Position numbers and translations under genes: made by a program
Shown here: one piece after another, positions 18,172 through 33,898 of the stretch
Position numbering within the stretch: the stretch's first letter is position 1
Layout: the number at the start of each line of letters is the position of its first letter
The notes under the pieces: model-generated
What the model was told of the DNA's origin: nothing
Seen by the model: only the letters and a program-made list of their open reading frames with translations
The model's database searches: none
From: Streptomyces sp. MRC013
Lineage (GTDB): Bacteria; Actinomycetota; Actinomycetes; Streptomycetales; Streptomycetaceae
Length of the DNA: 64,000 nucleotides
Direction: 5' to 3'
Assembly: GCF_023614235.1 (NCBI RefSeq)
Contig: NZ_CP094264.1
Location: 3,906,001 to 3,970,000, forward strand

Positions 18172-18243
18172 GGGTGCGTAGCTCAGGGGTAGAGCGCTGC
18201 TCTTACAAAGCAGATGTCGGCGGTTCGAACCCGTCCGCGCCCA
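18172..18243 (+). tRNA. tRNA-Val (anticodon UAC)
   Basis: 72-nt cloverleaf: acceptor GGGTGCG/CGCGCCC with one G-U pair at position 4, D stem GCTC/GAGC, anticodon stem CTGCT/AGCAG with loop CTTACAA (anticodon TAC, Val GUA codons), T arm GGCGG-TTCGAAC-CCGTC, discriminator A, no encoded CCA. Its 3' half from 18202 is the left attachment repeat of the integrated element, so the current 3' end is element-derived and still makes a complete tRNA. Confidence 0.93.
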
Positions 18244-18244
18244 C
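18202..18244 (+). repeat. attL
   Basis: 43-bp copy of the tRNA-Val anticodon-loop-to-3'-end segment. It matches 27977-28019 with a single difference in the T loop (C here, A at attR: TTCGAAC against TTCGAAA). Confidence 0.92.
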
Positions 18245-18264
18245 TTGATCGGCAGTACGCCGAA

Positions 18265-18302
18265 GGCCCAGGTCATCCGGGAGTTTTCCGGAGTCCTGGG
18301 CC
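18265..18302. terminator. Hairpin between attL and the integrase gene
   Basis: 8-bp outer stem (18265-18272 with 18295-18302) plus inner TCCGG/CCGGA stem around a GAGTTTT-containing loop. It can end the tRNA transcript from the left and the leftward integrase transcript from the right. Confidence 0.65.
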
Positions 18303-18340
18303 CTGTTCGTTTCCCCGCCGTCACGGGGCGGAGGAGGCGC

Positions 18341-18358
18341 CGTGCCACTCACGTGCCA
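18341..18358. repeat. Candidate integrase arm sites, left
   Basis: CGTGCCA at 18341-18347 and again at 18352-18358, an 11-bp period (one helical turn). The same pair with the same spacing occurs near attR at 27844-27861, as expected for integrase arm-type binding sites. Confidence 0.5.
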
Positions 18359-18382
18359 TATCGGGTCCACAACGAGTCCACA

Positions 18383-19501
18383 TCACCCGTCTTGATCGCG
18401 GGTCCTCCTGATCTGACGGTCGACGTGGTCGGCGATCTCCTGGTCACGACCGTTGACCAGATGCTGATAGATCAGCGCGGCCCGCACCGACGAGTGCCCC
18501 ATCCGGTGCATCAGCTCCCGCGTGGTCGCGCCACCGGTGGCCGCCAGGGTGTTGCCCGTGTGCCGCAGGTCGTGGAAGTGCACGTCACTCAGACCGGCGG
18601 AGGCGAGAGCGCGCAGCCAGATGCGGCGGAAGTTGTTGCGGCGCAGCATGCCGCCGCGGGGACCGACGAAGACCAGGCCGTTGCGGCCGGCCTCCGAGTA
18701 CTCGGACAGGTGGGCTTGCAGCTCCTCGACCAGCGAGGCCGGGAACACGACCGTACGGATGCCCGCCGCGCTTTTCGGCGTCTTGATCAGCAGGCCGTCC
18801 GTGCGCGTCTCGGCGGCAGCCCGGCGGACGGAGACGACGCGGCGTTCCAGGTCGACGTCATGCCGCTGGAGTGCGGCCAGCTCCCCGAACCGCAGCGACG
18901 TGAAGGCGGCGAGCAGGATCAACGCTCGGTAGCGCTCGGGGACGACGTCGGCGAGCCGGAACACCTCGGCGACCGTGAGGAAAGGACGCTCAGCCGTCTT
19001 CGTGGCACCGGCGCCCTTGATCCGGCACGGATTGCGTTGGATCAGTCCGTCGTCAACCGCCGTGTTCATGATCGCCCGAAGGATCTGGTACGCCTTCGCC
19101 GCGGTCGCTTCCCCTACACCGCTGTCGAGAAGGCCGGCACGCCAACGCCGGATCTGCGGTGTGCTGATGTCGCCCACGTTGATGTTGCGGAACGTCGGCA
19201 GGATGTGCAGCCGCAGTGCACTGCCGTTGCGCTCCCGTGTGGTCGCTGCGTAGTCGCGCTCCTTGAACCAGGCGTCGGCGTACGCCCCGAAGGGGACCTT
19301 GTCGTCCGGATTCTGCCAACGGCCCTCGATGATCTCGGCTTCCTTGCGGACCAGCCATCGGTCAGCGTCCGTCTGCGTCCCAAAGGTCTGGGGTGCCGCG
19401 CGGAGCAGCCCGTCAGGGTCTCGATAGCGCGCCTGAAAGCGTCCGGACGGCAGCTTGCGAACCGAGCCGAAACGCCGTTTCCTGCCCTTGCCGTTCGCCA
19501 T
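18383..19501 (-). CDS. int: Site-specific tyrosine recombinase (AICE integrase)
   Basis: 372 residues, full length for the family. ATG 19501 overlaps the excisionase stop by one base (TGATG). An N-terminal arm-binding part (RRFGSVRKLPSGRFQARYRDPDG) and a SAM-like core-binding domain are followed by the catalytic domain with Arg in TSLRFGELAAL (about 203), HDLRHTGNT (about 311) and the H-x-x-[7]-Y box GHSSVRAALIYQH (Tyr about 345). It inserts and, with Xis, excises the element at tRNA-Val. It lies immediately inside attL, as in pSAM2. Confidence 0.95.
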   Translation of the reverse strand: MANGKGRKRRFGSVRKLPSGRFQARYRDPDGLLRAAPQTFGTQTDADRWLVRKEAEIIEGRWQNPDDKVPFGAYADAWFKERDYAATTRERNGSALRLHILPTFRNINVGDISTPQIRRWRAGLLDSGVGEATAAKAYQILRAIMNTAVDDGLIQRNPCRIKGAGATKTAERPFLTVAEVFRLADVVPERYRALILLAAFTSLRFGELAALQRHDVDLERRVVSVRRAAAETRTDGLLIKTPKSAAGIRTVVFPASLVEELQAHLSEYSEAGRNGLVFVGPRGGMLRRNNFRRIWLRALASAGLSDVHFHDLRHTGNTLAATGGATTRELMHRMGHSSVRAALIYQHLVNGRDQEIADHVDRQIRRTRDQDG

Positions 19502-19716
19502 CAGGCCACCGCCCTGTACGCCGTCTCACGACCCGACGAAATCGGTGACACGGTGTTCGCCAGGACGAATGACTCCAAGGCATTTTCCGGAATGCGCACA
19601 TGACGGCCGACCTTGACGAACACGATGCGACGTTCGGCGATCAAGCGTCGCGGGAAGCGTTCCGTCGTCCCGAGGTACTCGGCGACTTCGGCAACGCTCA
19701 GCAGCCGGTCCTTCAT
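19501..19716 (-). CDS. xis: Excisionase (MerR-like winged HTH)
   Basis: 71 residues: MKDRLLSVAEVAEYLGTTERF begins an excisionase-type helix-turn-helix (residues about 5-25), then ERRIVFVKVGRHVRIPENAL forms the wing that ends in a helix. It overlaps rep (ATGA) at its start and int at its stop, so rep, xis and int are co-translated, the usual AICE arrangement. It bends attachment-site DNA and directs Int toward excision. Confidence 0.9.
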   Translation of the reverse strand: MKDRLLSVAEVAEYLGTTERFPRRLIAERRIVFVKVGRHVRIPENALESFVLANTVSPISSGRETAYRAVA

Positions 19717-21104
19717 GCTGCGGCTCCTTCCAGGTCGAGTTCGGCGCGGATTTCGCGGGCGGTTTCGCGGTTGTGTTGGAGGTCGCGGCGGATGGTGGCG
19801 GCGAGCCAGGACTCTCCGGGGGTGTGGCCGTGGCCGGCGTAGGTCCAGTGGGCGACGACGAGCGTGGTTGCTTCGGGGTGGTCGTCGGGGTCGGGCAGGC
19901 CGAGGGCGGCGCGTTGTTCGGCGGCGCGGTAGTCGGCGCGGGTCTGGCGCAGGGCGGTGAGGGTGGTGGAGTAGCGGCGGGACTTGGTGGAGAAGTGGCC
20001 GCGGAAGCCGAGCATGTGGGCCCAGTCGCGTAGCTTGCGGTCGGGGTACAGCGGGTGGAGGTCGAGGCAGGCTTCGATCAGGCGCCGGGGATGCTCCGGC
20101 ACACCGAGCAGGTCGAGGGCTTCCTTGTTGCCGATGCGGTGGTCGACGGTGCCGGTGGTCTCCGCGGCTTTGGTGGCGTACTTGGCGACGTAGGAGGCGA
20201 CGGCCTGTTCGTTGATCTCCTCGCCGTCGCCGAAGGCGCCGATGGGCTGGATGTCGAGCTGGGTGCCCCAGCGCAGCGTCCGGGCGGGTTGGTTCCCGGC
20301 GTCGGGGACGTCGACGTGGACGCGGGCGGCGGCGGCCCGGGTGGCGTCGGTGAGCAGGTTGAGCGTCGCCCAGGCAGGCGGCGGTGTGTCGGGTCCGTCG
20401 GGGCCGTCGAAGCGGATCACGGCGTGGAAGTGGACGGCGCCACGTTTCTGGTACTCGGCGACCTTGCCGAAGGAGACCCGGGAGGCTTCACGGGCGGCCT
20501 TTTGGGTGAGGCCGGCGCGGCGGGCGATCTCGCGGCGGAGGTAGATCGTGAAGTAGCGCCACAGCTCGGAGGCGTGGTTGTTCCACAGCACCGCGCCCGC
20601 GTAGTCGTACGTCGCCGGGTCGAGCGCGGTGCCCAGTTCGGGGGCGTCTTCGGCGTGGCGGGTGCCGCAGGCGCAGGGGCGGTTTCCGGGCCGGTTGTGG
20701 ACGGGGCCGAAGGAAGGGGCGGTGAGGGTGGCGAAGACCCGCGGGTGGTCGCGCACGGTGTCGGGGGTGCCCTTGGCGGGGTCGCCGACGAGTCCGGCGC
20801 GGATCAGGTGGTAGGTGTCGCCGGCGTAGGTCCAGGCGCAGGCCGGGCAGCGCGAGGCGCGGCGGTTGCCGCAGGCCACGCGGAGGCGTCCGCCGGGTTC
20901 GGTGTCGGTGGAGTAGTGATGCAGAACCTGACCCGTGGCGGCATCCCGGGTAATGGTCTGGCCCTGGAGGTGGATGGGGGCGGCGCATCCACCGGTGCGG
21001 CGGATCTGGTCTTGGAGGCGGTCGAAGCCGGGGGACCCGGCCAGCCTCACCACGTCGGCGAGGGTGGCCGGGTCCAGGCCCGCCGCGGTGGCGGGGTTGC
21101 TCAC
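19713..21104 (-). CDS. AICE replication initiator (RepSA-like)
   Basis: 463 residues. GTG 21104 follows a strong GGAAGGAGG. The N-terminal half has a zinc-binding cluster (CGNRRASRCPACAWTYAGD, then CACGTRHAED). The rolling-circle HUH signature is visible as FHAVIRFDGPDG preceded by KRGAVHFHAV, and YVAKYATKAAE carries the candidate catalytic tyrosine around 285-295. It nicks the double-strand origin and starts rolling-circle replication of the excised circle. Stop and start overlap with xis downstream and the 56-residue gene upstream. Confidence 0.88.
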   Translation of the reverse strand: MSNPATAAGLDPATLADVVRLAGSPGFDRLQDQIRRTGGCAAPIHLQGQTITRDAATGQVLHHYSTDTEPGGRLRVACGNRRASRCPACAWTYAGDTYHLIRAGLVGDPAKGTPDTVRDHPRVFATLTAPSFGPVHNRPGNRPCACGTRHAEDAPELGTALDPATYDYAGAVLWNNHASELWRYFTIYLRREIARRAGLTQKAAREASRVSFGKVAEYQKRGAVHFHAVIRFDGPDGPDTPPPAWATLNLLTDATRAAAARVHVDVPDAGNQPARTLRWGTQLDIQPIGAFGDGEEINEQAVASYVAKYATKAAETTGTVDHRIGNKEALDLLGVPEHPRRLIEACLDLHPLYPDRKLRDWAHMLGFRGHFSTKSRRYSTTLTALRQTRADYRAAEQRAALGLPDPDDHPEATTLVVAHWTYAGHGHTPGESWLAATIRRDLQHNRETAREIRAELDLEGAAA

Positions 21105-21271
21105 GCGTTGTCCTCCTTCCGGGGGTGGGTGTCGTTCCACTGCTCGGCGCAGACCTTGTGGACGGGCTTGCCGCGGTCGGAGCGCAAGGGGGTGGGCCGG
21201 GTGCAGATCACGCAGGGCTTGTCGCCGGAGTGGTCGTAGTGGTCGGCGGAGCGCCAGTTCAACAGGGCCAT
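21101..21271 (-). CDS. Small AICE protein with Cys/His motif (56 aa)
   Basis: ATG 21271 gives MALLNWRSADHYDHSG; the stop overlaps the GTG of rep (GTGA), so the pair is coupled. CVICTRPTPLRSDRGKPVHK followed by VC holds C-x-x-C and H-x-x-C, a possible single zinc site. It is found only by its place in the transfer operon; function unknown. Confidence 0.7.
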   Translation of the reverse strand: MALLNWRSADHYDHSGDKPCVICTRPTPLRSDRGKPVHKVCAEQWNDTHPRKEDNA

Positions 21272-21276
21272 GGCGG

Positions 21277-21459
21277 TCACTTCCCGACGTGAACGCGGAC
21301 GGCGGCGGGGGTGGTGCGGCCGGTGCCCCGGCAGGTGGGGCAGGCGACGCGGAGGGTGGCGCGGGAGCCGTCGGCCGCCTGAAGGCCGGTGGTGATGGTG
21401 GCGGTGGCGAAGCCGTCGCAGTCGCGGCACACGCGCGACGCCGGGGTGTGCTGAGGCAT
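21277..21459 (-). CDS. Small DnaJ-type zinc-finger protein (60 aa)
   Basis: ATG 21459 (MPQHTPASRVCRDCDGFA) has GGGAG upstream. Two C-x-x-C pairs (CRDC and CPTCRGTGRT) resemble half of a DnaJ zinc finger. Five bases separate it from the next gene, in the same leftward operon. Such proteins are frequent in Streptomyces integrative elements; role unknown. Confidence 0.7.
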   Translation of the reverse strand: MPQHTPASRVCRDCDGFATATITTGLQAADGSRATLRVACPTCRGTGRTTPAAVRVHVGK

Positions 21460-21554
21460 GATGGGGTCTCCCTTTCGGGTCCGGTGGATCTGGAAGTGGC
21501 CCAGGCGCCCCGGGGCGGCGGAAGTTTGGCGACCGAGGCCGCCCCGGGGGCCGC

Positions 21555-21797
21555 TCAACGGCGGCGCCAAGTGCGGCGCGGCGGGTTGATGGGCGGGAGC
21601 GCGTCGTACGCTTCCTGGCCGTGCTGGAACGAGGCGGCGTCCGCATCGGTCTGAGCGGTGTTGGTGTACTCGCGGCCGATGCGGCGCATGGTCTTGCGGT
21701 CGCCGTGGCGGCGGGCGATGGCGAACTCACGGCCCATCTCGGCCATGGCCGGGTTCGCCGGGGTCTCGCTGTCCTTCTTGCGGTTGAACAGGCCCAT
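21555..21797 (-). CDS. Hypothetical AICE protein (80 aa)
   Basis: MGLFNRKKDSETPANP leads into a charged helical segment (AEMGREFAIARRHGDRKTMR) and a Pro/Arg-rich end. No known domain. It shares the leftward operon with the Spd-like gene 12 bp upstream. Confidence 0.65.
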   Translation of the reverse strand: MGLFNRKKDSETPANPAMAEMGREFAIARRHGDRKTMRRIGREYTNTAQTDADAASFQHGQEAYDALPPINPPRRTWRRR

Positions 21798-21809
21798 GAC
21801 GGGTTCCTT

Positions 21810-22115
21810 TCAGCGGTGGTTGTTGTCCTTCAGGAGCAGGCGCAGCACGACGGCGACCAAGGCGACCGAAGCCGCGGTGACGGCGACCGCCAGGAGCGTG
21901 GAGACCAGGACCGTGCCGACGACGAGGACGGCGGCGGTGCCGGTGGCGACGGCGGCGGGCGTGATCTGAACCGTGGCGCGCGACGGCGGCAGGGCCGGGG
22001 TAGGCGGCACCGCGGCCGGGGCGGGAACGGCCGACGGAGTCGCGGTGGCGCCGGTCGGCTGGAGCGGGACGGGCGCGGTGGCGGTGTCGGGCGGCGGGTA
22101 CTTCGGGGTGAACAC
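21810..22115 (-). CDS. Spread-type membrane protein (SpdA/SpdB-like)
   Basis: 101 residues from GTG 22115 (MFTPKYPPPD). A proline-rich N-terminal half of about 45 residues precedes two hydrophobic helices (AAVLVVGTVLVSTLLAV and SVALVAVVLRLLL), ending in a short charged tail. Small membrane Spd proteins assist plasmid spread through the mycelium after transfer. Assigned by size, topology and place in the operon. Confidence 0.7.
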   Translation of the reverse strand: MFTPKYPPPDTATAPVPLQPTGATATPSAVPAPAAVPPTPALPPSRATVQITPAAVATGTAAVLVVGTVLVSTLLAVAVTAASVALVAVVLRLLLKDNNHR

Positions 22116-22127
22116 GGCTTGTCTCCT

Positions 22128-22316
22128 TCAGGCGTTGCAGCGGTGGGTACGGGCGGCGAGTTCGGCGGCGGGCCGGTTGTGGTAGTCGGCGGAGAAGTCG
22201 CAGCCGGGGGCGGTGCACACGGCCGTGTGCTTGGTCCGCCCGCGGCCGTCGTAGTGACTGCCGACCCGGACCGGGCCGATGCGGATCACGTCGTAGAAGC
22301 GGTTCGGACGCGCCAT
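22128..22316 (-). CDS. Mobile-element transfer protein (62 aa)
   Basis: ATG 22316 gives MARPNRFYDVIRIGPVRVG, the typical start of a short family called mobile element transfer proteins in Streptomyces. It has HTAVCTAPGCDFSADYHN, with a C-x(4)-C pair, and ends THRCNA, a likely small zinc finger. It lies between two other small transfer genes. Confidence 0.75.
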   Translation of the reverse strand: MARPNRFYDVIRIGPVRVGSHYDGRGRTKHTAVCTAPGCDFSADYHNRPAAELAARTHRCNA

Positions 22317-22321
22317 GGCGG

Positions 22322-22498
22322 TCAGACCTTGCCGACGAAGTCGTCGGCGTGGTCGGTGAGCCACTGCCTGATTTCGGGGTGCTCATCCTCGGTGGCCCGG
22401 TTGATGGCTGCCTCCGCGATGGCGACGGCTTCCACGAGCTGGTTGTTGCGGGTCAGTTCGGCCGAGCGCTCCAGGGCGCAGCGGATGGACGGACGCAT
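22322..22498 (-). CDS. Hypothetical AICE protein (58 aa)
   Basis: MRPSIRCALERSAELTRNN continues as an all-helical acidic protein (VEAVAIAEAAINRATEDEH). It sits five bases ahead of the mobile-element transfer gene and 16 bases after the DUF2637 gene. No domain recognised. Confidence 0.65.
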   Translation of the reverse strand: MRPSIRCALERSAELTRNNQLVEAVAIAEAAINRATEDEHPEIRQWLTDHADDFVGKV

Positions 22499-22514
22499 AG
22501 TGCGGTTCTCCTGT

Positions 22515-23222
<708 letters not shown>

Positions 23223-23299
23223 GATTCACCTCCTTTCAGACATGGCAGGGGTAGGGACCTGGCGCGAGATACGGCCGCGCCGACCGTCGAACAAGGGGG

Positions 23300-24645
23300 T
23301 TAGTCGGTGACGGGCACCGGCTTGACCAGCGGCACGGCATCGGCCGCCGGCGCGGCGGAGACGATCGGCCGGTAGGGGACCAGGGCCGCAAGGCGCGGGG
23401 TCAGGTCCGCGTACCGGGCGCAGATCGCGGCGACCTTGGCCGCGCTCAGCTCGGGGGTACGGATGCGGGACCAGCCGCCGGAGGAGTCACCGGCCACCGC
23501 AACACCGGGCCGGTCCGGCGGGATCGCGGTCACCGCCATGACCGCATCAGGGGCGATATCGCCAAGGCCCATGTCGGCGGTCTGCTTGTCGTTGACCCGG
23601 TGCACGACCCGCCCGGTGAGCTGGGCGCGCAGCGTGGTGGCGCCCTTGCCGAGGTCCGAGCCGAAGCGCTGGCCGCACACCTCCAGGAAGATGCCGGCCG
23701 CACGAGCCATCTGACCCATGCGGATCATCTGCATGACCATCCGGTCCCGGCGTTCCTCATCCTTCTTCCCCGCCACGAGAAACAGCTCCGCCACCTCATC
23801 CACCAGGACCACGACCGGCACCGGCCGCACCCGCTCGGGCAGCGCCCACACATCGGCCGCGCCATGCTCGCTGAGCAGGTCGAAACGCGCTTCCATCTCG
23901 CCCACCAGCGCATCCAGCACCCCGGACGCTTCCTCGGGGGTAATGGCCAGGGCCGACAGGCGGGGCGCGTATCCGCGCTGCTCGACCCCGCGCTTGCAGT
24001 CGATCCCCACCAGCGCCACCGGCAACCGGGCCAGCCCGGCGACGAGGTTGCGCTGATACATCGACTTGCCCGACTGGTTCGCCCCCAGCGTCAGCGCGTG
24101 CGGCACCTTCAGGTAGTCCCGCACGAACGCCGTACCGTCCTCCCGCAGCGCCACCGGCACCCTCATCGACCCCGAGGGGAGACGGCGCGGCATCTTCACC
24201 CGCCGCAGCACGTCATAGCCCGTCATCCGCAGCTCGACGAACCCCGGCCGGGTCTCCACCACGTTCACCGAGTGCACCCCCAGGCATGCCGCAGCCGCTC
24301 AGAGGCCGCCACCACATCCGCAGGCTCAAGACCGGCCGGAAGACGCAGCGTGACCCGCATCCCGGTCGCCGAGCCCCGCACGCGCCGGATCTTCGGCGGC
24401 ACCGGCTGAACGTCCGCGCGGCGGGCGACGGTGCGGACCATGAACGCCCGCAGACGCGACGGCTGCACCGTCAACCCGCACACGTCCATCGTCGAGCGGT
24501 ACGTCACCGCGAACCGCACCCGCGCCACCGGCAGACCCACCAGCGACCAGAACACCCGCGGCGCCCGGACCCTCGCGTAGCCCAGACCACCACCGGCACC
24601 GGCCAGCGGAAGGCCGACCTCCCATAACGTCGACAGGTCCGACAC
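23300..24645 (-). CDS. FtsK/SpoIIIE-type DNA translocase (TraSA-like), split by a one-base frameshift
   Basis: Single-protein conjugation pump that moves double-stranded DNA between hyphae. Two frames are needed: GTG 24645 to stop 24265 (126 aa, MSDLSTLWEVGLPLAG, ends RHAWGCTR), and from GTG 24277 onward (325 aa). Together they give about 450 residues, the normal length, and the join RHAWG+VHSVNVVETRPG matches the family if the C-run at 24277-24281 had one more base. Walker A GANQSGKS and Walker B VVVLVDEVAEL are in the second part, with LRAQLTGRVVHRVND further on. The second frame could reinitiate at its overlapping GTG, so function is not excluded. Confidence 0.88.
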
Positions 24646-24647
24646 GA

Positions 24648-24980
24648 TCAGGCACCCACCGGCGTGATGGCGACCGCGCGGAACGAGATCCCGTGCCGCG
24701 TCTGCCCGTTGAACGTGTTCTCCCAGTCCCGCGCCTTCAGCCCGATCACCGTCACCGGCATCCCCGGCGTCAGCCCCTCCGGGATACCGGTCTCCGGGAC
24801 GGTCACCTGGTACAGGTTCCCCTCACCCTCGTCCGAGATCAGCAGGCCCACCGTGGACAGACCCGCACCGGTCTCCCGGTCCACCGCCCGCTCACCGGTC
24901 TGCTTGTTCACCAGCTTCGGCACCGGAGCCGTGGCCACGAACACCACGGCAGTCGACGTGTCCACCTTGAACGACGGCAT
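24648..24980 (-). CDS. SCO3933-type regulatory protein of the AICE
   Basis: 110 residues from ATG 24980 with AAAGGAG 8 nt upstream. MPSFKVDTSTAVVFVATAPVPK begins a beta-rich OB-like protein (VNKQTGERAVDRETGAG, GMPVTVIGLKARDWE). This short family is always the first gene of the transfer operon in such elements and is called a regulatory protein, though direct evidence is thin. It is the first gene downstream of the operator-controlled promoter at 25050-25078; traSA starts inside its stop region. Confidence 0.75.
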   Translation of the reverse strand: MPSFKVDTSTAVVFVATAPVPKLVNKQTGERAVDRETGAGLSTVGLLISDEGEGNLYQVTVPETGIPEGLTPGMPVTVIGLKARDWENTFNGQTRHGISFRAVAITPVGA

Positions 24981-25015
24981 GATCTCTCCTTTGAGATGGC
25001 AGGAAGGGTCTAGAC

Positions 25016-25078
25016 GACCAACTTGGCTATCCCCGTTGGTCATGTCTCCAAGTTAGAAGACATGGCTAGCCATGTCAA
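25016..25078 (-). promoter_or_regulatory. Promoter of the leftward transfer operon with two operator-like repeats
   Basis: Reading leftward, TTGACA (25078-25073), a 17-bp spacer and TAACTT (25055-25050) form a near-consensus promoter. The perfect 18-bp palindrome GACATGGCTAGCCATGTC (25059-25076) covers the spacer and most of the -35. Just downstream lies a second inverted repeat, GACCAAC (25016-25022) and GTTGGTC (25035-25041). The likely ligand is the divergently encoded GntR/KorSA-like protein. Confidence 0.75.
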
Positions 25079-25132
25079 CAACATGACTGCCGTGACTGTC
25101 TTGCTAGAGGCGACTCGCCTACCATCAACCTC

Positions 25133-25999
25133 ATGACCTTTGTCCCCGAGCCCCTCGACCCAGACGACGACCGAGCACCCTACGAGCAGGTGGCCAGCAG
25201 TCTTGGAGCCGCCATCCGGACCCGTCGACTGGCCCCTGGTGAAAAGCTCCCGTCCCATAAGGAGCTGACGGAGCTGTACGGCTTCGCACGGGCGACGATC
25301 CAGCGCGCGTTGCGGGATCTCGAAGATGAGGGACTTGTGGTCTCCCGCAAAGGCAGCGGGGTCTACGTCCGCAACCGGACGGAAAGGCCGGCGGGGCTAC
25401 GGCCCTATGTCGAGCAGGCTTTCGCGAAGGACCACGTCACCATCGACTTCGCCGGGTTCTCCAGCGAGACCTTGCATGGTGCACTGCAAGAACCACTTGA
25501 CAAGATCCGCATCGGAAGGCTGACCCCGTCAAGCATCACCATGCGGATACTCGTTCCGGACATGTCGGTACCGCAGGCCGCCCCGGTACGGATGGCGGAC
25601 GGAGCGGACGACAAGCGGTTGCGAGACCGTATGCACGACATCATGGTCGGCTACACCCGCAGCATTCGGGACGCGATTACCGAGCTGGAGCACCTGGGGT
25701 TGGTTGCCGAGACCCGGATCAACGTCCGTGTCCACAGCGGCACGCAGTTCTTCAAGCTGTACGTGATTAACGGCGAAGACGCGTTTTTCGGGTACTACCC
25801 GATCCGCCCCAACAAGGTCGTCGCCCAAGGCGAGACGATCGAAATCTACGACCTTGTGGGCAAGGACACGACGCTCTTCCACCACTCGATCAACGATGGC
25901 GAGTCCTCCAGCGGGGCCCAGCAGGTCCAGCAGGCCGGCATGTGGTTCAACAGCGTCTGGGAGACGATCGGAAGGGACTTCGACCTTGACGCACGATGA
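25133..25999 (+). CDS. GntR-family transcriptional repressor (KorSA-like)
   Basis: 288 residues from ATG 25133. Residues 15-80 are the GntR winged HTH (APYEQVASSLGAAIRTRRL, LPSHKELTELYGFARATI, LEDEGLVVSRKGSGVYVR). The C-terminal 200 residues (MHDIMVGYTRSIRDAITEL, FFGYYPIRPNKVVAQG, KDTTLFHHSINDG) form a distinct ligand or dimerisation domain, larger than in KorSA of pSAM2. It is divergent from the transfer operon and very likely binds the palindrome in between. Its end overlaps the HAD gene, so regulator and HAD form one operon. Base composition is less GC-rich than the chromosome. Confidence 0.85.
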   Translation: MTFVPEPLDPDDDRAPYEQVASSLGAAIRTRRLAPGEKLPSHKELTELYGFARATIQRALRDLEDEGLVVSRKGSGVYVRNRTERPAGLRPYVEQAFAKDHVTIDFAGFSSETLHGALQEPLDKIRIGRLTPSSITMRILVPDMSVPQAAPVRMADGADDKRLRDRMHDIMVGYTRSIRDAITELEHLGLVAETRINVRVHSGTQFFKLYVINGEDAFFGYYPIRPNKVVAQGETIEIYDLVGKDTTLFHHSINDGESSSGAQQVQQAGMWFNSVWETIGRDFDLDAR

Positions 26000-26678
26000 C
26001 CGACTCCCGGAGGTCCTCGCCAACGCAGGCGTGATCTTCTTCGACTTCGACGGGCCTGTGTGCGACGTGTTCGCCGGGCTCCCCGCTTCCGAAGTCGCCA
26101 AACAGCTCACCGTGCTCTTGGCTACCAAGGACGCAGCCGCGGGCGCGAAGGCCGCCGAGACCGACGACCCGATCGAGGTTCTGCGCATCGCACACGAGGC
26201 CGACGCAGAGTTGGGCCAGGAAGTGGAGGCGGCTTTGACGGCGGCGGAGGTGGAAGCCGTCGCGGTGGCTGGCCCGCCGACGCCGGGAGCAGCGGAAGCC
26301 CTCCAAGCCGTGAAATCCTCGGGCCGGGCAGTGGCGGTGGTGAGCAACAACTCTGCCGAGTGCGTCCAGCGCTTCCTGAAAACCCACGGACTGGAAGGGT
26401 ACGTCGTGCGGATCGTCGGCCGACCGGCCGGGCAACCCCACCTGATGAAGCCCAACCCGTTCCCACTCATCACAGCGGCCGAGCAGATGCATATGGACGT
26501 CACGAACTGCACCCTGATCGGTGACTCGCTCACAGACATCCAGGCTGCCCACGCAACCGGGACGACAGCCATCGGCTACGTCAACAAGCCCCACAAGGCC
26601 GACCTCTTCGCGGAAGCGCAAGCCGACGCCATCACGGACGACATGCACGCCATCGCCAACGCACTCACCACGGCGTAG
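25986..26678 (+). CDS. HAD-superfamily hydrolase-like protein coupled to the GntR gene
   Basis: 230 residues. Start TTG 25986 (MTHDDRLPEVLANAG) is inside the GntR gene, with GGAAGGG 10 nt upstream; no ATG or GTG gives the motif-complete product. HAD motif I is FFDFDGPVCDVF (Asp20, Asp22), motif II VSNNSAE near 118, motif III Lys in LMKPNPFP near 157, motif IV GDSLTDIQAAH near 178. It resembles phosphoglycolate-phosphatase-type HADs. A truncated relative lies outside attR (28475-28995), so it is a recurrent cargo of this element type. Substrate unknown. Confidence 0.82.
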   Translation: MTHDDRLPEVLANAGVIFFDFDGPVCDVFAGLPASEVAKQLTVLLATKDAAAGAKAAETDDPIEVLRIAHEADAELGQEVEAALTAAEVEAVAVAGPPTPGAAEALQAVKSSGRAVAVVSNNSAECVQRFLKTHGLEGYVVRIVGRPAGQPHLMKPNPFPLITAAEQMHMDVTNCTLIGDSLTDIQAAHATGTTAIGYVNKPHKADLFAEAQADAITDDMHAIANALTTA

Positions 26679-26734
26679 CCGAAGAGCAGCGGAGACCTGT
26701 TACAGGTTTCTCTACCTCATCAAGCCCCGGCTGC

Positions 26735-26801
26735 GCTCCGCTCCGCCGGGCGGGCTCCCGGCTCCGCTCCGCGCGACGCTCCTGCCTCCGGCCCGCTCCG
26801 C
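26735..26801. repeat. Cluster of five GCTCCGC heptamers
   Basis: GCTCCGC starts at 26735, 26740, 26761, 26766 and 26795, two pairs with a 5-bp offset and one single. Clustered short direct repeats are the recognition sites of TraB-type translocases in Streptomyces plasmids, so this is a candidate clt-like site; the assignment is inference. Confidence 0.5.
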
Positions 26802-26969
26802 GCGGGCTGCGCCGACGCCCGCCCACAGGTGGACAGGGCCGAAGGCCATGAGCCGAGCACCGTCCGCACAGTCACGGTCAAAGCCTGATGCCTCCGGCGG
26901 GGGATCGGCCGGCACCGGGATGGCGGGGGCGCCGTCCCCGGCTGCGGGTCCGTAAGGGCGTGCGTGGGG

Positions 26970-27121
26970 AGCTTCCATCCCGTCCGCCGTCGACCCAGGC
27001 AGAGCCGAGCAGACACGGCACCGGGCGTCCAGGTCGTTCGTCCAGTTGGGCGCTCCACCTGGACGCCCGGCACCGCGCCCGCTCCACGGTGTGTGGGTCG
27101 ACGGCGGACGGGATGGAAGCT
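26970..27121. repeat. Large inverted repeat (28-bp perfect arms plus inner arms)
   Basis: The arm at 26970-26997 is the exact reverse complement of 27094-27121 (28 bp). Inside, CCGGGCGTCCAGGT (about 27022-27035) pairs with ACCTGGACGCCCGG (27057-27070) around a 21- to 22-nt loop. Together they can extrude a two-part cruciform or single-strand hairpin of about 150 nt, as at single-strand origins or oriT-like sites of rolling-circle replicons. Confidence 0.8.
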
Positions 27122-27317
27122 GGGGGGGTGGGTTGAGATCCACGAGCAGTCCGACGCGCCGGAAGCGTACGGATCCTGATCGGTCACCCAAGGCTGCTAG
27201 GCCGATCCCGTCAGCGATCGGTAGCCGAAAAAGCGCGCAGGTATCCCTACATGTAGTGGTTGCATGGTCCGACACGCCCACAAGTTGTGGTCTGTATAAC
27301 CCATTTAGGTCACTGGG

Positions 27318-27396
27318 GCGCTATGCTTCTCGATAGCGCGAAAGACCCCAGTTCAGAAGGACTGACGCGGGGTCGGTGCCTGCTCGAACTGGGGTC
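27318..27396. other. Two hairpins upstream of the YjzC-like gene
   Basis: GCGCTAT/ATAGCGC (27318-27324 and 27333-27339, 8-nt loop) is followed by GACCCCAGTTC/GAACTGGGGTC (27344-27354 and 27386-27396, 31-nt loop). They could be a terminator or a structured leader of the small gene at 27502. Confidence 0.5.
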
Positions 27397-27501
27397 GTGA
27401 TGCGTTCCTAGGCGCCCAACGACCCTACATGGTTCCGCTCTTTGCTCAGAAGGGCGGGGTCGACATCGAGTGGTATCCAGCTCGAAAGGTAGGTGATCAG
27501 G

Positions 27502-27669
27502 ATGGCCAAGAAGCTTACGCCGGGTACGCCAGCACCGAAGTCGGGGCAGTACAAGGTCCCCGGTTCTAAGACCGAGGTCACGGCCGTGAAGGGTAAGCCC
27601 CTTCCGCCGACGCCCAAGGCCGGTCAGGGTTACAAGCTTGTCGACCCGACCAAGCACAAGGGCAAGTGA
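27502..27669 (+). CDS. YjzC-like small protein (55 aa)
   Basis: ATG 27502 with AGGTGAT about 8 nt upstream gives MAKKLTPGTPAPKSGQYK, ending LVDPTKHKGK. The pattern P-G-x-x-A-P-x-S-G-x-Y, then TEVTAVKGKPLPPTP and a basic end, matches the small YjzC-type family of Bacillus and Streptomyces. It is lysine-rich and much less GC-rich than its surroundings (AAG codons), consistent with element cargo. A clean hairpin terminator follows 6 nt after the stop. Function unknown. Confidence 0.75.
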   Translation: MAKKLTPGTPAPKSGQYKVPGSKTEVTAVKGKPLPPTPKAGQGYKLVDPTKHKGK

Positions 27670-27675
27670 TAGGCC

Positions 27676-27702
27676 GGGGCAGACTCCTCGGGGGTCTGCC
27701 CC
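27676..27702 (+). terminator. Terminator of the YjzC-like gene
   Basis: Perfect 9-bp stem GGGGCAGAC (27676-27684) with GTCTGCCCC (27694-27702) and a 9-nt loop, followed by TTG. Confidence 0.8.
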
Positions 27703-27843
27703 TTGCCTTGCGTTGCGGTGCAGCAAGGAAGTACAGCAACCAGGTTGCCCGCAGGACGCCGCGGAGGGTTGCCATAGGGCTGTGGGCCAGGCCGGATGAC
27801 TTCAGTGACCGCCCCGCTCGTAGTTCGCATCGGGAGGTTCAGC

Positions 27844-27861
27844 CGTGCCAGATCCGTGCCA
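27844..27861. repeat. Candidate integrase arm sites, right
   Basis: CGTGCCA at 27844-27850 and 27855-27861 (the larger repeat is CGTGCCAGATC), with the same 11-bp period as the pair inside attL at 18341-18358. Confidence 0.5.
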
Positions 27862-27976
27862 GATCGAGCGGTCAGCCACGGTCAACCGGAGGGCGTGGCG
27901 GTGCCGGTGCTGTATCGGCAGCCGGGATCCTCAAATGGCGGATGACCAGGGAGGCGTGTCCGCCGGGGGCGCCAGG

Positions 27977-28019
27977 CTTACAAAGCAGATGTCGGCGGTT
28001 CGAAACCGTCCGCGCCCAC
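27977..28019 (+). repeat. attR
   Basis: 43-bp copy of the tRNA-Val 3' segment, differing from attL only at the last T-loop base (A instead of C). No tRNA 5' half precedes it, so it marks the right edge of the element and the displaced original tRNA end. Confidence 0.92.
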
Positions 28020-28025
28020 CAGCGC

Positions 28026-28059
28026 AAAGGCCCCCGGTCGATCACGACTGGGGGCCTTT
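28026..28059 (+). terminator. Displaced tRNA-Val terminator
   Basis: AAAGGCCCCC-GGTCG (28026-28040) pairs with CGACT-GGGGGCCTTT (28045-28059), one G-T pair, 4-nt loop, seven bases after attR. It was probably the terminator of the tRNA before insertion. Confidence 0.75.
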
Positions 28060-28089
28060 GACATCCACATCCGACATCAACGGTGCCGG

Positions 28090-28452
28090 TCACCGGCGGC
28101 CGGGGCGCCTCCTGAGCAGCCGGTCCATGTGGCTGACGGCCTCACGCTGCGTGTCCTGCACGACGTGGGTGTACACGTTCATGGTCACGGCGATCTGGCT
28201 GTGACCGAGGATCTCCATGACGACGCGGGGCGCGACCCCGGCGGCGGTCAGCCGGTCGTCGCGTTCACCGGAATCCACCTCGACCTGACGGACCCAGCCG
28301 CGCAGGGCCTCCTTGTGGATGCCCAGGTCCTTCGCGACATGCGCGATCGGACAGCCAGTGGCGCGGACCTGGCGGACAGCCCTCTCGCGGAACTGTCCGG
28401 GTATGTGCGTGGTGCTGGCACTGCTCGTGGTTCTCCTTCGGGTCAGGGTCAC
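28090..28452 (-). pseudogene. Chimeric remnant: IS3-type OrfA fragment joined to integrase C-terminus
   Basis: The 120-codon frame has two unrelated halves. Codons about 16-69 (PGQFRERAVRQVRATGCPI, DLGIHKEALRGWVRQ) are the HTH part of an IS3-family OrfA. Codons 70-120 (APRVVMEILGHSQIAVTMN, VYTHV) are the last 50 residues of a tyrosine recombinase, including the H-S-x(8)-Y box. The junction is near 28245. Neither half can work. The integrase part lies in the same orientation and distance from attR as the live integrase from attL, so it looks like the leftover of an older element. Confidence 0.75.
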
Positions 28453-28474
28453 AAGCCTGGCTTCAGGGACTCCA

Positions 28475-28995
28475 CGAAATCAGGGTCAACTCAAAGTGCT
28501 GCGCCTGGCGCACGCGGCGGACGTCGACCTCGGGCACGAGGTGGAACGCGCACTGACGGTGGCCGAGGTGGAGGCGGTCGCGGTGGCGGGAGCCCCCACG
28601 CTGGGAGGGGGGCGGCGCTGAGGGCGGCGAGGGAGGCGGGGCGGCGGGTCGCGGTCGTCAACAACAACTCGGCGGAGTGCGTCCGGGCGTACCTCGACCG
28701 GCATGACCTCTCCGCGTACGTGCTGGAGGTGGTGGGTCGGGCCGAGCACCGGCCGGACCTGATGAAGCCGAATCCGCATCCCCTCATCACCGCGGCCGAG
28801 AGCCTCGGCGTGGACGTGACGCGCTGCGTGCTCATCGGGAACTCGACCACCGACGTCCAGGCCGCGCACGCCGTCGGCGCCGTCGCGATCGGCTACGCCG
28901 ACAGGGCCGACAGGGCCGAGCCGTTCGCCGCGGCCGGGGCCGACGTCGTCATCCGGAGCATGCAGGCCGTCGTGGACACCCTGGAGCCCGAGTAG
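28475..28995 (+). pseudogene. Truncated copy of the AICE HAD gene
   Basis: Codon for codon it follows the HAD protein at 25986: LRLAHAADVDLGHEVERAL and VAEVEAVAVAGAPTLG in one frame, then after a one-base break at the G-run 28607-28612, ALRAAREAGRRVAVVNNNS, LMKPNPHPLITAAESLG and LIGNSTTDVQAAHAVG to a normal stop. The N-terminal third with the catalytic D-x-D motif is missing, replaced by the IS3/integrase junction region. The sequence is more GC-rich than the AICE copy, so it has been longer in this genome. Confidence 0.8.
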
Positions 28996-29253
28996 GCCGC
29001 CAGGGGCCTCCATCTGATCAAGGCACCCGCTGTGCGCGGCACGGTGGTCGGCTCAGAGGTGGTGGAGGGGGTCTCCCCCATGACCGGGGCGGTCGGCTCC
29101 GTGGTGTCAGGCGGCTTCTTCGGGGTGACTCGAAGAGCAGGGATTCAACCTCGTGCCGGGTGAGGTGGGGCCGTGGGCTGCTCGGCGTGCCGTCGGCGCG
29201 GGGGCGTGGTCACTCGTCCTGCGGCGACTTTCGGTTGAGGTCGCTTCGTCGGG

Positions 29254-29559
29254 CTATTCCTGGATCGGCAGGTCCGGGTGGGTGAACACGAAGACCACGT
29301 AGGCGACGGCCGCCCCCGTGCCCAGGGCCGAAAGGACGAGAGCGGTCACGGGGGCGGTGCGGCTGGTGTTCAGCCTCGACGCGGTGCGGAGCTCGACGCA
29401 GCCCCGCACCAGGCCGGTGAGGCCGAGAGGGAGGGCGAGGAGCCAGACGAGTACCCAGAAGGGGCAGCAGAACCAGAAGGCGACGGAGAGCCCCCCGAAG
29501 ATCATGGCTCGGCTCGGTCGCTGGGGTTCACCGCCGGGCTGGTCGACCGCGCCGCTCAC
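29254..29559 (-). CDS. Small two-helix membrane protein (DUF4190-like)
   Basis: 101 residues. GTG 29559 overlaps the stop of the DUF4262 gene (GTGA). After a polar start (MSGAVDQPGGEPQRPSRAM) come two hydrophobic hairpins: SVAFWFCCPFWVLVWLLALPLGLTG cut by charged residues, and VTALVLSALGTGAAVAYVVFVF. This is the layout of DUF4190-type proteins. Function unknown. Confidence 0.7.
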   Translation of the reverse strand: MSGAVDQPGGEPQRPSRAMIFGGLSVAFWFCCPFWVLVWLLALPLGLTGLVRGCVELRTASRLNTSRTAPVTALVLSALGTGAAVAYVVFVFTHPDLPIQE

Positions 29560-30095
29560 GCCTCGGTCCACGGGCCGGTGGACTCGCCCTTCGGGATCCA
29601 GAACAGTGGCTGGCTCGTGCGGCAGCACTCGTCCGCCTCCTCGTCCCAGGGGAACCGCCCGGCCCTGTCCGGCCACAACAGCTGGGTGATCGGCAGGGGC
29701 GGAGCCTGGTAGAAGTCGACGCCCGCGCCGAAGAAGACGAGGTACCAGCTGGGGCGGACGGGCCGGACGGTCACCTCGTAGCCGTGGAGGACGTCTCCCC
29801 GGCGCTGGTCGGGTTCTAGCGGGACGCCGTCCCGGACGCCCGCGGCGGCGCTGTTCACCACGCGCATCGCGGTCGGGGAGGGCAGGCCGAACACGCTGAC
29901 CTCGGGGCTGCGCAGGGTGTGCCAGAGGCCGATGGAGCAGCCCCAGTCGCCTGGGGAGTCGCCGCCGGCCACGCCCACGACGTGCCAGCCGAACTCCGTG
30001 ACGTTTCCGGCTATGCGGCTGTCGCGCTCCTCCCACGCCGGGCCGCCCCGTTCGGCCGGGGTGCAGAGGAGGCAGAAGCACGGGGACTCGTTCAT
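29556..30095 (-). CDS. DUF4262 domain protein
   Basis: 179 residues from ATG 30095. MNESPCFCLLCTP opens with a Cys-rich knuckle; GWHVVGVAGGDSPGDWGCSI, GLWHTLRSPEVSVFGLP and FFGAGVDFYQAPPLPITQL are the DUF4262 core, a small family often found near toxin or nucleotide-handling genes. It is translationally coupled to the membrane protein downstream. Role unknown. Confidence 0.8.
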   Translation of the reverse strand: MNESPCFCLLCTPAERGGPAWEERDSRIAGNVTEFGWHVVGVAGGDSPGDWGCSIGLWHTLRSPEVSVFGLPSPTAMRVVNSAAAGVRDGVPLEPDQRRGDVLHGYEVTVRPVRPSWYLVFFGAGVDFYQAPPLPITQLLWPDRAGRFPWDEEADECCRTSQPLFWIPKGESTGPWTEA

Positions 30096-30238
30096 CCGGG
30101 GGAGGGTAGCCGGTGACCCTGTACGGCCCCAATCGGTCCGCTGGCGCCCCGGCCCCGACGGTGCCGGGTGGTCCGCGGCGGGTTCCCCGCCGTGCCGGGT
30201 GGGCGGGCCGGGTAAGCCTCGCCCCGAGGGGTGGTTCC

Positions 30239-30415
30239 GTGCGGGGACTCGGGGCCGTGTTCGTCGGCGGGGCCGTGCTCGTCGCCCTGCTCGCCGTATT
30301 GATCGTTCCCGCCTGGGCGCGGGCGCGGGCGCGGGTGACCGCGATCCGGCTGGAGGGGGCGCGGGAGGCCCGGCGGCGGGGCGGTGGTGGTCAGGCCGCC
30401 GGGGAGCGGTGGTAG
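30239..30415 (+). CDS. Possible small single-pass membrane protein (58 aa)
   Basis: From GTG 30239 (MRGLGAVFVGG) with GAGGGG about 8 nt upstream; one clear helix (GAVLVALLAVLIVPAW) followed by a basic tail. It overlaps the end of the convergent DUF2087 gene by 25 bases. Only topology and the ribosome site support it; no family recognised. Confidence 0.45.
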   Translation: MRGLGAVFVGGAVLVALLAVLIVPAWARARARVTAIRLEGAREARRRGGGGQAAGERW

Positions 30416-30669
30416 GCGGCGCCGTCCCGGGTGCGGGTCAGGTGGCCCGAGACGACCAGGTGGCGGCGGAGGGCGGAGCAGTCCGGGTGGACGGTGCGCA
30501 GCGCTTCGTTGACCTCGGGCTCCGTGTAGGTGCGGCCGTGTTCGAAGAGGGTCTGCGCCAGGTGGGCCAGCAACTGCTCGCGGCGGGCCGGTCTGCGGGG
30601 GACGGCGGTGAGGCGGCCTTCGCCGTCGAAGAGGGCGGACACGCTGTGCGGCGTACGGTGCTCCGGCAT
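30391..30669 (-). CDS. DUF2087 protein
   Basis: 92 residues from ATG 30669 (MPEHRTPHSVSALFDGEG) with GAGG 10 nt upstream. SALFDGEGRLTAVPRRPARR, YTEPEVNEALRTVHPDCSAL and LRRHLVVSGHLTR match the DUF2087 winged-helix-like domain, elsewhere fused to DNA-binding domains. Probably a nucleic-acid-associated regulator; partner unknown. Confidence 0.8.
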   Translation of the reverse strand: MPEHRTPHSVSALFDGEGRLTAVPRRPARREQLLAHLAQTLFEHGRTYTEPEVNEALRTVHPDCSALRRHLVVSGHLTRTRDGAAYHRSPAA

Positions 30670-30736
30670 GGCGGGAAGCCTCACAGACGGTGCGCCCGCT
30701 TCGCAACGGGTTTGCCCGGCCGCCTCGTCGGCGGGG

Positions 30737-31672
30737 TCACAGGGTCCAGAACGGGCCCGAGACCGAGCGGTGCAGGAGGCGGACCGGGCGGTTGTCGGAC
30801 GTTCGCGCGCGGACCATGAAGCGCAGGTGGCGGCCGGCTCCCGTGTCGGCCGTGCAGGTGAACTGGTGGCCGCCCGCCCCGTACGCCCGCACCGGCAGAT
30901 GCAGGGAGCGGTCGCCGCCGTTCCCGTCCGTGGTGTAGAAGCGGCCCTCGACCACCGTGTCCGCCGGGGTGTCGTCCCCGAACAGCAGGTGGACGGTGGT
31001 GTGGTGGCGTACCGGCCCCACCAGCAGGACCGCGGTGCGGAAGGAGAGTCCGGCCCAGTTGCCGGACGTGAGCTCCATGTCGGCGGCGTTGGACTCGTTC
31101 AGCATGTCGGGCACGGGGTCCTCCTCGGAGGGTACGGGCGCCGTCTGGTCGTCGGCGCGTTTCACGATCCCGGGGAACACGACCTTGCGGAACTGGTCCA
31201 CGCGCGCGTCCCCCGGGCACGCGGTGCCACCCGCCGACCAGGCGGAGTGCAGGCGGTGGTAGCCGTAGCCGGGGTCGTCGTGGCTGCGGCAGATCCGCAG
31301 GGGCAGGCCGTGCCGCTGGTGCAGCCACACCCCCAGCCGGATCAGCTGCTCGACCTGCTCGTCCGTCCACGGGTCGGTGTGCTTCAGGTTGGACGCCGTC
31401 TCGACGGACACCGCGCCGGTGCCGTCGGGGCGCCGGTTGGCCGTGTAGTTGGCGTCGGCGCGCGTCTCCGTGCCGATGTACTGGGCGAGGTCGCCCGCGT
31501 ACCCGAGCCCGAAGTGCGACTCGAGCGAGCTGGACTTCCAGTACTCGTAGAGCCGCTGCGCGGTCCACGGTGCGGCGAGGCTGTGCAGGATGAACTGCGT
31601 CGGCCTGATAGCGGGTTGCTGATCGCTCTCGGGCTGGAGCTCCAGCTTCCTCGCGAACGGGCACCAAGCCAT
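30737..31672 (-). CDS. N-acetylmuramoyl-L-alanine amidase (Amidase_2 / PGRP fold)
   Basis: 311 residues. ATG 31672 has AAGGAGG 9 nt upstream. No signal peptide is seen. Residues 20-170 are a T7-lysozyme-like amidase: zinc-ligand His in TQFILHSLAAP, the GLGYAGDLAQYIGTE strand, CRSHDDPGYGYH and the third-ligand region TACPGDARVDQF. Residues about 190-311 are a beta-rich carbohydrate-type domain (HHTTVHLLFGDDTPADTV). Cleaves the stem peptide from peptidoglycan. Cytoplasmic form may act by lysis or be carried by another route. Confidence 0.85.
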   Translation of the reverse strand: MAWCPFARKLELQPESDQQPAIRPTQFILHSLAAPWTAQRLYEYWKSSSLESHFGLGYAGDLAQYIGTETRADANYTANRRPDGTGAVSVETASNLKHTDPWTDEQVEQLIRLGVWLHQRHGLPLRICRSHDDPGYGYHRLHSAWSAGGTACPGDARVDQFRKVVFPGIVKRADDQTAPVPSEEDPVPDMLNESNAADMELTSGNWAGLSFRTAVLLVGPVRHHTTVHLLFGDDTPADTVVEGRFYTTDGNGGDRSLHLPVRAYGAGGHQFTCTADTGAGRHLRFMVRARTSDNRPVRLLHRSVSGPFWTL

Positions 31673-32252
31673 CGGGGTGCCTCCTTCTGACTCGAGTACG
31701 TCTTCTGGGGGGCGTCCGGCTCCGGCTGCGCCTCCACGCGCTCGGCCCCGGACACCGGGCCATGCGTCTCCTCCTCGGGGCGTGGGGTGCCTCGTGCGCG
31801 GCGGGCGGTGCGGGCACCTGACAGTGAGGTGCCCGGTGCGGGGACCCGTCACTCGGCGCGGCGCGCACTCGCCGGGGACGAGCGGGGCGGACGAACCCCA
31901 ACCGCCCCACGGGGCAGGCTGGTTCCCGTACGCGTCCTCCCGCCCCGTCCCGTCGCGGGCCCGGTGGTACGGAACGACCGCTCCGTGTCGCCGGTCCGTC
32001 CCGTGCCGGTCCGCTCCGTGTCGCAGGGCCCTACCGCGCCGGTCCGGGACGCACCGGTCCGCGCCGCGCCCGCCGCGTCCACCGCCGATCGCGCGGGCGC
32101 CGCCCCCGCCGCGCCCGGCGGCCACGGCGCCCACCGGGGCGGCGCCGTCGGAGCCCGGCGGCGGCCGTGCGGGGTGCCCGGGGCGGACCTAGACTGGCGA
32201 ATGCCCGACATGCCCGAAAAACCCCTCACGGGGCTCGGAAGGGAGTGGTCCC
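31673..32252. other. Gene-free stretch upstream of the amidase and bL37 genes
   Basis: About 570 bp with no credible gene. It contains a GGGCACCT/AGGTGCCC hairpin (31812-31834) and two CCGCTCCGTGTCG-like copies (about 31979 and 32013). TAGACT at 32190-32195 is a probable -10 box for bL37. Confidence 0.55.
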
Positions 32253-32327
32253 ATGTCGAAGCGCGGCAACAAGCGGCGTGCCCGCAGGGGCAAGAGGGCC
32301 AACCACGGCAAGCGGCCCAACGCCTGA
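32253..32327 (+). CDS. Ribosomal protein bL37 (24 aa)
   Basis: Very short gene: ATG 32253, stop TGA 32325-32327, with GGAAGGGAG 8 nt upstream. The product begins MSKRGNKRRARRGKRANHG and ends KRPNA, the almost purely basic sequence of the actinobacterial large-subunit protein bL37, seen in mycobacterial ribosome structures next to 23S rRNA. The -10-like TAGACT lies 58 bp upstream. It is convergent with the flavoprotein gene (13-bp gap). Confidence 0.93.
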   Translation: MSKRGNKRRARRGKRANHGKRPNA

Positions 32328-32339
32328 CCTCCGGAGCGC

Positions 32340-32897
32340 TCACCGGGCCCGGTACGCCGCCTCCACCGCGTCCAGGGCCGGCGCCCAGGGGAAGTGGTCC
32401 GGCCGGTCGGGGCCGGACGGGTCCGGGAGGTGCCCGCCCTCGCCGTGCAGCACCGCCACGCCCGCCGCCCGCAGGGTCTCCACCGACCGGTCGAACTGCG
32501 GGTGGCGTGCGTACGCGGCGTTCGCGCACGGCACCGCGACGACCGGCAGGCCCCTGCCGACGGCCTCCGCCGCGACGCCCACCACGAGGTTGCCGGTCAG
32601 GCCGAGCGCCCACGCGTTCACCGTGTTGAACGTCGCCGGGGCGAACAGCAGCGCGTCGGCCGGGGGCCAGACGTCCGGGTCGCCGGGGCGTTCGTACGCG
32701 CTGCGCACCGGGTGCCCGGTCAGCACGGCCAGCCCGTCGAGGCTCGGCTCCAGCCAGCGCGCGGCGCTCGGCGTCAGCCCCAGGCAGACGTCCCAGCCAC
32801 GCGCCTGTGCGTCCTCGACCACCCTCGCCACGTCGAACACCGGGGGAGCGGCGGAGCAGAACAGATACAGGGTCCTCGCTTCGATCATGGAGTTCAT
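32340..32897 (-). CDS. Flavoprotein (HFCD/phosphopantothenoylcysteine decarboxylase-like)
   Basis: 185 residues from ATG 32897, or 182 from ATG 32888; neither has a good ribosome site. ARTLYLFCSAAPPVFDV is the FMN-phosphate-binding strand-loop, LLFAPATFNTVNAWALGL contains the P-A-T-x-N-T motif, and VPVVAVPCANAAYARHP carries the second motif. A lone HFCD protein of this kind is probably a flavin-dependent decarboxylase of a cysteinyl group; substrate unknown. Confidence 0.8.
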   Translation of the reverse strand: MNSMIEARTLYLFCSAAPPVFDVARVVEDAQARGWDVCLGLTPSAARWLEPSLDGLAVLTGHPVRSAYERPGDPDVWPPADALLFAPATFNTVNAWALGLTGNLVVGVAAEAVGRGLPVVAVPCANAAYARHPQFDRSVETLRAAGVAVLHGEGGHLPDPSGPDRPDHFPWAPALDAVEAAYRAR

Positions 32898-33179
32898 CTG
32901 ATCACACGCCGTACGGGTGCCTCCCGGCGGTGGGGAGACGTCCGCACCGCTCGGCCGGACGGGGAACGCCGTGTGCCGCGGCGTCAGGACCCTCCGTCCG
33001 CCGGCGCTCCGCGGGGAGGCCGCCGAGGACGACATCCCCGCCGCCCTCCGGCGCGGGCGCGAGGCCCCCGGGTTCCGGACGTCCGCCGCGCACGACCGGG
33101 AGGGGCGAGCGCGCCGTCGCCGGGGCGGCCGGGGCGACGCGGCGGCCGCCCGACGGGCCGGAGGCGCGCGGTGCCCCCG

Positions 33180-33797: not shown

Positions 33798-33898
33798 CCC
33801 GACCCCCGCTCGCTGCCGACAAATGCGGAACAGCGTACGCCCCGCACGTCAGCGGGTGCACGGAGGGCGGCCGGAGGGCCGCCCGCCCCGGCCGCGCG

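Follow-up and report, generated by a model that had tools for sequence, protein, structure and literature searches.

A tRNA-Val(TAC) gene of Streptomyces is followed by a mobile element bounded by two direct repeats, and beyond the right-hand repeat (attR) lie pieces of an integrase gene and of a HAD hydrolase gene. The question raised by this locus is whether these pieces are what is left of another element at the same tRNA and, if so, which of the two arrived first. The window, that is, the whole stretch of DNA analysed, is 64 kb long (positions 3906001–3970000) and belongs to a 5.33-Mb single-contig genome (G000). The inner element, with integrase IntA, is referred to as A, the other AICE type, with integrase IntB, as B, and the HAD remnant right of attR as HAD2 (Table 1).

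Table 1. Features of the tRNA-Val(TAC) locus, in coordinates of the window.
Feature	Position	Strand	Evidence or remark
tRNA-Val(TAC), integration target	18172–18244	+	ARAGORN
attL, 43-bp core within tRNA 3′ end	18202–18244	+	Direct repeat
IntA, tyrosine integrase	18383–19501	−	PF00589, E 1.5e-21; 94% to the G249 integrase at the same tRNA
Small HTH protein, probable excisionase	19501–19716	−	HTH_17, E 1.7e-11; sits between int and rep
Replication initiator RepSA	19713–21140 (ORF limits, start codon unsettled)	−	PF20199, E 1.1e-155; NF041486 above cut-off
FtsK/SpoIIIE-type tra, frameshift near 24265–24278	23300–24645	−	PF01580 on the larger piece
GntR regulator	25133–25999	+	PF00392, E 2.5e-20; 97% to G249
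HAD hydrolase of A	25986–26678	+	PF13419, E 3.5e-18; 83% to G249
Middle att (attR of A, attL of old B)	27977–28019	+	Direct repeat
Left end of old B element	28020–28089	none	Similar hairpin and tail adjoin att in B elements
IntB C-terminal fragment, last 52 codons	28090–28251	−	88% to G021 IntB residues 332–383
Putative deletion junction, where int and IS matches overlap	28239–28251	none	int ends at 28251; IS starts at 28233–28248, mostly 28239
IS3-type element end with orfA start	28239–28493	−	78–89% to copies in 11 other loci; PF01527
HAD2, pseudogene probably of the old element, 5′ part cut by IS, frameshift near 28600	28494–28995	+	Homology
Right flank	29252–33035	none	Partial matches to the S. 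noursei sequence beyond tRNA-Val
Two genes, VTT/DedA-type, then a large gene	33180–35587	−	Downstream of tRNA-Val in many relatives

The inner element and its repeats

Element A was observed directly with both of its att copies. The two 43-bp copies differ by one mismatch, and a search for a 19-base att core, with up to three mismatches allowed, gave exactly two hits across the window (mean of 0.04 in shuffled sequences). Judged by its set of Int, HTH, RepSA, FtsK-Tra, GntR and HAD genes, the inner element is a pSAM2-type AICE: it has an integrase and an att repeat in the tRNA 3′ end, as well as a RepSA initiator, and its FtsK/TraB-type translocase gene is present, though split by a frameshift. 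pSAM2 has an FtsK-type Tra and a tyrosine integrase that acts in a tRNA 3′ end; the resemblance, to which RepSA of the inner element adds, is one of gene types. An A-type cousin occupies the same tRNA in G249, measures 11.4 kb from att to att and shares the integrase at 94%, Rep at 83% and HAD at 83%.

The tra gene occupies two frames in the window, against one open reading frame in G021 and one continuous match in G249. The break is visible in the DNA alignment with G249, and intact copies exist in relatives; the frameshift may be real or may be an assembly error. Homopolymers lie close to this break, as they do to the HAD2 frameshift. Because tra is frameshifted, the description of the inner element as live is in doubt, and it may be less than fully so.

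The T-loop of the tRNA in the window reads TTCGAAC (18230), that of the middle att TTCGAAA (28005), and the majority of relatives, though not every one, have the latter form; the tRNA of G008 likewise has C. The changed tRNA end may have been brought by the inner element, or the tRNA may have mutated later.

A probable second element right of attR

The sequence directly right of the middle att (28020–28251) resembles the integrase end of B elements, at 82% for G021, 86% for G309, 81% for G121 and 80% for G019, the integrase of which is itself a fragment; over the B loci compared at tRNA-Val, identity to the whole or most of this sequence ranges from 71 to 87%. Thus the left end of B, with integrase codons, is observed directly, and an AICE-type integrase (28090–28251) lies beside the att in the old element. 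Att-bounded B elements that encode an integrase, Rep and Tra are present at tRNA-Val in G021, G018, G121, G122, G309 and G253. Within G000 no complete B-type integrase was found, and Rep and Tra queries gave no match right of attR in the window, consistent with a deletion.

Two stacked generations of related elements, the older being an AICE of the same family, had been proposed in the preliminary description. The match of 28020–28251 to the integrase end of att-bounded B elements supports a further AICE at this tRNA as the source of the right-hand fragments. The relatedness does not extend to the integrases: IntA and IntB are only ~25% identical over 381 aa (the fragment and IntA, 30% over 40 aa), which rules out one integrase family for both elements, and two integrase lineages therefore share one 43-bp target. 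Nor was an outer att found. The middle att separates A from B as a direct repeat, and a third copy, for which a search right of 28995 had been suggested, was not found in the window: pattern searches across its whole length recovered no copies beyond the two already known; in local alignments, scores over 28031–34000 were no better than those of shuffles, and the best score over 34000–64000 was 25, a value taken without a length-matched shuffle control.

Other parts of that description held. The integrase C-terminus right of attR does point leftward, ending near 28251 and not at 28245; an IS3-type end does mark the deletion, lying between the integrase fragment and HAD2; the truncated HAD gene does run to 28995; and the fragments are arranged and oriented as in an intact element. 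Att-bounded B elements occupy this tRNA-Val in six or more other genomes. An additional feature of HAD2 had been missed. Its similarity to the HAD gene of A falls in two different frames, at 73% across 37 aa and at 54.5% across 110 aa; it is therefore frameshifted besides being truncated at the 5′ end.

The transposase N-terminus matches PF01527 above cut-off, and its best NCBIfam match, to the IS3 family, is far below cut-off. Copies of the IS in 11 other loci match parts of 28233–28511 at 78–89%, most of them from 28239 (the alignment holds 12 loci, the first being the window itself). They suggest an IS tip at about 28493, and HAD sequence begins at 28494, so that the IS end abuts HAD directly. 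At its other side, the integrase and IS matches overlap by ~12 bp, and in this overlap the window departs from either one at one to a few bases. The gap would be accounted for most simply by a single deletion running from the IS into the integrase gene. A 120-aa open reading frame joins the OrfA N-terminus in frame to the Int C-terminus, a fusion that probably arose by chance.

A terminator-like hairpin was read by eye at about 28026–28059. Since a near-identical hairpin also follows the outermost att examined in G121, G210, G277 and G290, it is possibly the native tRNA terminator. Recognizing a B remnant from the hairpin alone (28020–28064) was dropped, as some loci have a like hairpin on their native side, and only matches reaching integrase codons were counted as B. 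In the window and in L196, L203, L204 and L206, the att copies are adjoined by a hairpin immediately beyond the tRNA 3′ end; from this arrangement, an integrating element may rebuild not only the end of the tRNA but also its terminator.

The outer end of the old element probably lies between 28996 and ~29252, because stretches of the flank beyond match the sequence that follows tRNA-Val in S. noursei (29258–29501 and, inverted, 32251–32878, the latter being 32344–32878 for strain B-3066). The GC content of the remnant is 0.705, as against 0.77 for each flank; the inner element has 0.69. The distance from the tRNA to the DedA-type gene is 14.9 kb in the window, 1.1–14.6 kb (median 4.2 kb) at 56 loci without a detected integrase, duplicates included, and 4.3–16.9 kb at 10 loci with one.

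Within this flank, the genes at 29254–29556 and 30737–32134 were provisionally labelled DUF4190 and AbfB, the VTT/DedA-type gene DedA and a further gene PhoD; Pfam assigns no family to the first, Amidase_2 to the second and VTT to the DedA-type gene. The flavoprotein segment (32251–32907) lies in the opposite orientation to that in G249, G025, G006, G290 and S. noursei. It is separated from the 29254–29556 gene by the DUF4262 and Amidase_2 genes (29556–32134), for which no match at E ≤ 1e-4 was found in the other tRNA-Val loci examined. A relative of the 29254–29556 gene sits between att copies in G077, and this gene may therefore once have lain in an array.

Order of insertion and alternative readings

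We consider it probable that two AICEs are stacked at tRNA-Val(TAC), the decayed B having come first and A having been inserted later. A B-type AICE would have integrated into the 43-bp tRNA 3′ end, after which an IS3-type element would have inserted into its HAD gene. The middle of B would then have been removed by a deletion from the IS to the integrase gene, via a short shared sequence, which left the integrase C-terminus, the IS end and the remainder of HAD, with the outer att lost. Finally, an A-type AICE would have integrated at the rebuilt tRNA end, pushing the B remnant outward.

The place of A, between the tRNA and B, would suit a later arrival of A, but the order of these events cannot be fixed from position alone, because B entering the attR of A gives the same layout, and the nearly intact middle att is a possible target for such an entry. 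It is nevertheless decidedly unlikely that A came first and that B, arriving later in its attR, decayed fast, since B is far more decayed (its central part and its outer att are gone) than A, in which one frameshift was found, in tra. This difference in decay is the sole argument for B before A.

The account of two stacked AICEs takes HAD2 to have once been part of B. This combination is known from G115, where a B-type integrase (77%) occurs with GntR (96%) and HAD (84%) beside tRNA-Arg(cct), and on that ground a Rep-Tra-GntR-HAD backbone may be common to A and the old element. At tRNA-Val, a B integrase and GntR are joined in G212 by a distantly related HAD (42%), and G212 is the only HAD carrier among the B elements read there, in the stretch examined. 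In the B elements of G018, G063, G122 and G309 at tRNA-Val, GntR is accompanied by a Nudix gene instead of HAD. These elements, the missing outer att and the att arrays, three to five copies long, in G024 (four), G030 (three, counting the next stretch), G104 and G077 would fit three layers, with the integrase remnant from B, HAD2 from a third AICE further out and a deletion that crossed the att between them. We regard this as unlikely, as the order can be reached in fewer steps by one IS insertion and one deletion, and a B-type integrase with GntR and HAD does exist in G115 and G212.

Alternatively, HAD2 could be a native chromosomal gene, with only the integrase piece being mobile. Among 26 HAD loci, 11 have neither Rep nor Tra in the stretch examined (the stretch of L151 is too short to tell), and forcing HAD2 among nine non-AICE HADs was not rejected (AU test, P value=0.119), which is not decisive. 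Yet the family is sparse, with matches at E ≤ 1e-25 in 25 of 295 genus members (G000 included), and the best match to HAD2 in 40 stretches around tRNA-Val in relatives reaches only 36% over 69 aa. Moreover, eight of the nine nearest kin of HAD2 outside G000 (E ≤ 1e-42, 392 genomes) stand beside rep, the ninth being a decayed GntR-HAD pair ~280 bp from a tRNA-Arg. In the HAD tree (29 rows), HAD2 groups with 14 of 15 AICE-borne genes (support 89/86, not starred), apart from the nine non-AICE genus rows; the fifteenth, the HAD of G212, falls outside both groups. A native origin of HAD2 is thus very improbable.

The GntR-HAD pair and the tRNA-Val site in other Streptomyces

GntR adjoins HAD at 24 of the 26 loci by the GntR query, and at L138 and L151 it was met only by the GntRB query, at a distance. 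Rep or Tra is also present at 14 of the 26, with an integrase at 11 of those 14. The pair travels with the RepSA backbone, among elements of different integrases and different tRNA genes, a mobility which hints at a possible role of HAD on behalf of the element, with exclusion as one example. In pSAM2, according to part of a published account, Pif is a Nudix protein that prevents redundant exchange (PMC3218068). The inner element differs in having GntR followed by a HAD hydrolase. Because HAD stands where several B elements have Nudix, the domain of Pif, one might speculate by analogy that it acts like Pif. The fuller conjecture, that HAD beside GntR replaces the Nudix immunity factor and excludes related elements, so that loss of the old HAD through the IS would have let a second HAD-carrying AICE in, is highly doubtful.

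HAD copy number was uninformative as a signal of exclusion: one copy is present in 24 of the 25 matching genomes and two in G000, one of them broken, and about one double is expected by chance (26 copies, 295 genomes). In the literature searched, which covered few subscription papers, none joined AICE, haloacid dehalogenase, Streptomyces and integrase. At L142, L143 and L157–L163, GntR (80–85%) and HAD occur with no rep or tra in the 18–20 kb examined, and their HADs form a tree group of their own (89/69); loci of this kind are perhaps a second, chromosomal home of the pair.

The same site is used by A and B elements elsewhere. Among 80 named loci, picked by the left-hand gene of the window and all from Streptomyces, the tRNA is accompanied by a whole or partial B-type integrase in nine and by an A-type one in six, counts that cover up to 10 kb past the left-hand gene. 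B-type integrases at E ≤ 1e-100 are present in 78 of 295 genus members, at tRNA-Val and other sites. The tRNA region was detected at E ≤ 1e-10 in 44 of 61 genomes (G000 included), and from 36 of the 43 others the tRNA-Val locus was taken (L039–L074), some stretches being short; nine of these 36 hold at least two att copies within the stretch examined. A second att copy was found at 27 of 127 loci with a full tRNA, a partly chosen set that includes duplicates and loci picked for their B integrases. Given these multiple att copies and the A and B integrases beside the tRNA in relatives, tRNA-Val(TAC) is a hot spot at which elements are often stacked. It emerges as a busy Streptomyces landing site for at least two distant integrase lineages, where older remnants persist beside newer elements.

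Layering of elements at one tRNA is already known and ordinary in Streptomyces, and the present locus is a fresh example of published AICE accretion. The sections of a study of a Streptomyces rhizosphere population that bear on it describe several AICEs and an ancient remnant at one tRNA-Arg, between direct repeats, with integrases of 39–88% identity, as well as AICE decay and, in a tRNA-Val gene, AICEs with 46-nt repeats (PMC9513070). AICEs with different integrases and a remnant at one tRNA are common to that tRNA-Arg accretion, as described in those sections, and to the present locus, which differs in its tRNA-Val(TAC) target, integrases of ~25% identity, lack of a detected outer repeat and IS3-type end. 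Likewise, two AICEs with integrases of different subfamilies, Sav3708 and Sav3728, share one tRNA-Arg in S. avermitilis; the portion of the source that deals with them describes tandem AICEs (PMC3218068), whereas here the outer one is a ~1-kb remnant. In G077, five att copies are present at tRNA-Val over two stretches (L208 and L209), together with two B-type integrases, at 64 and 84%.
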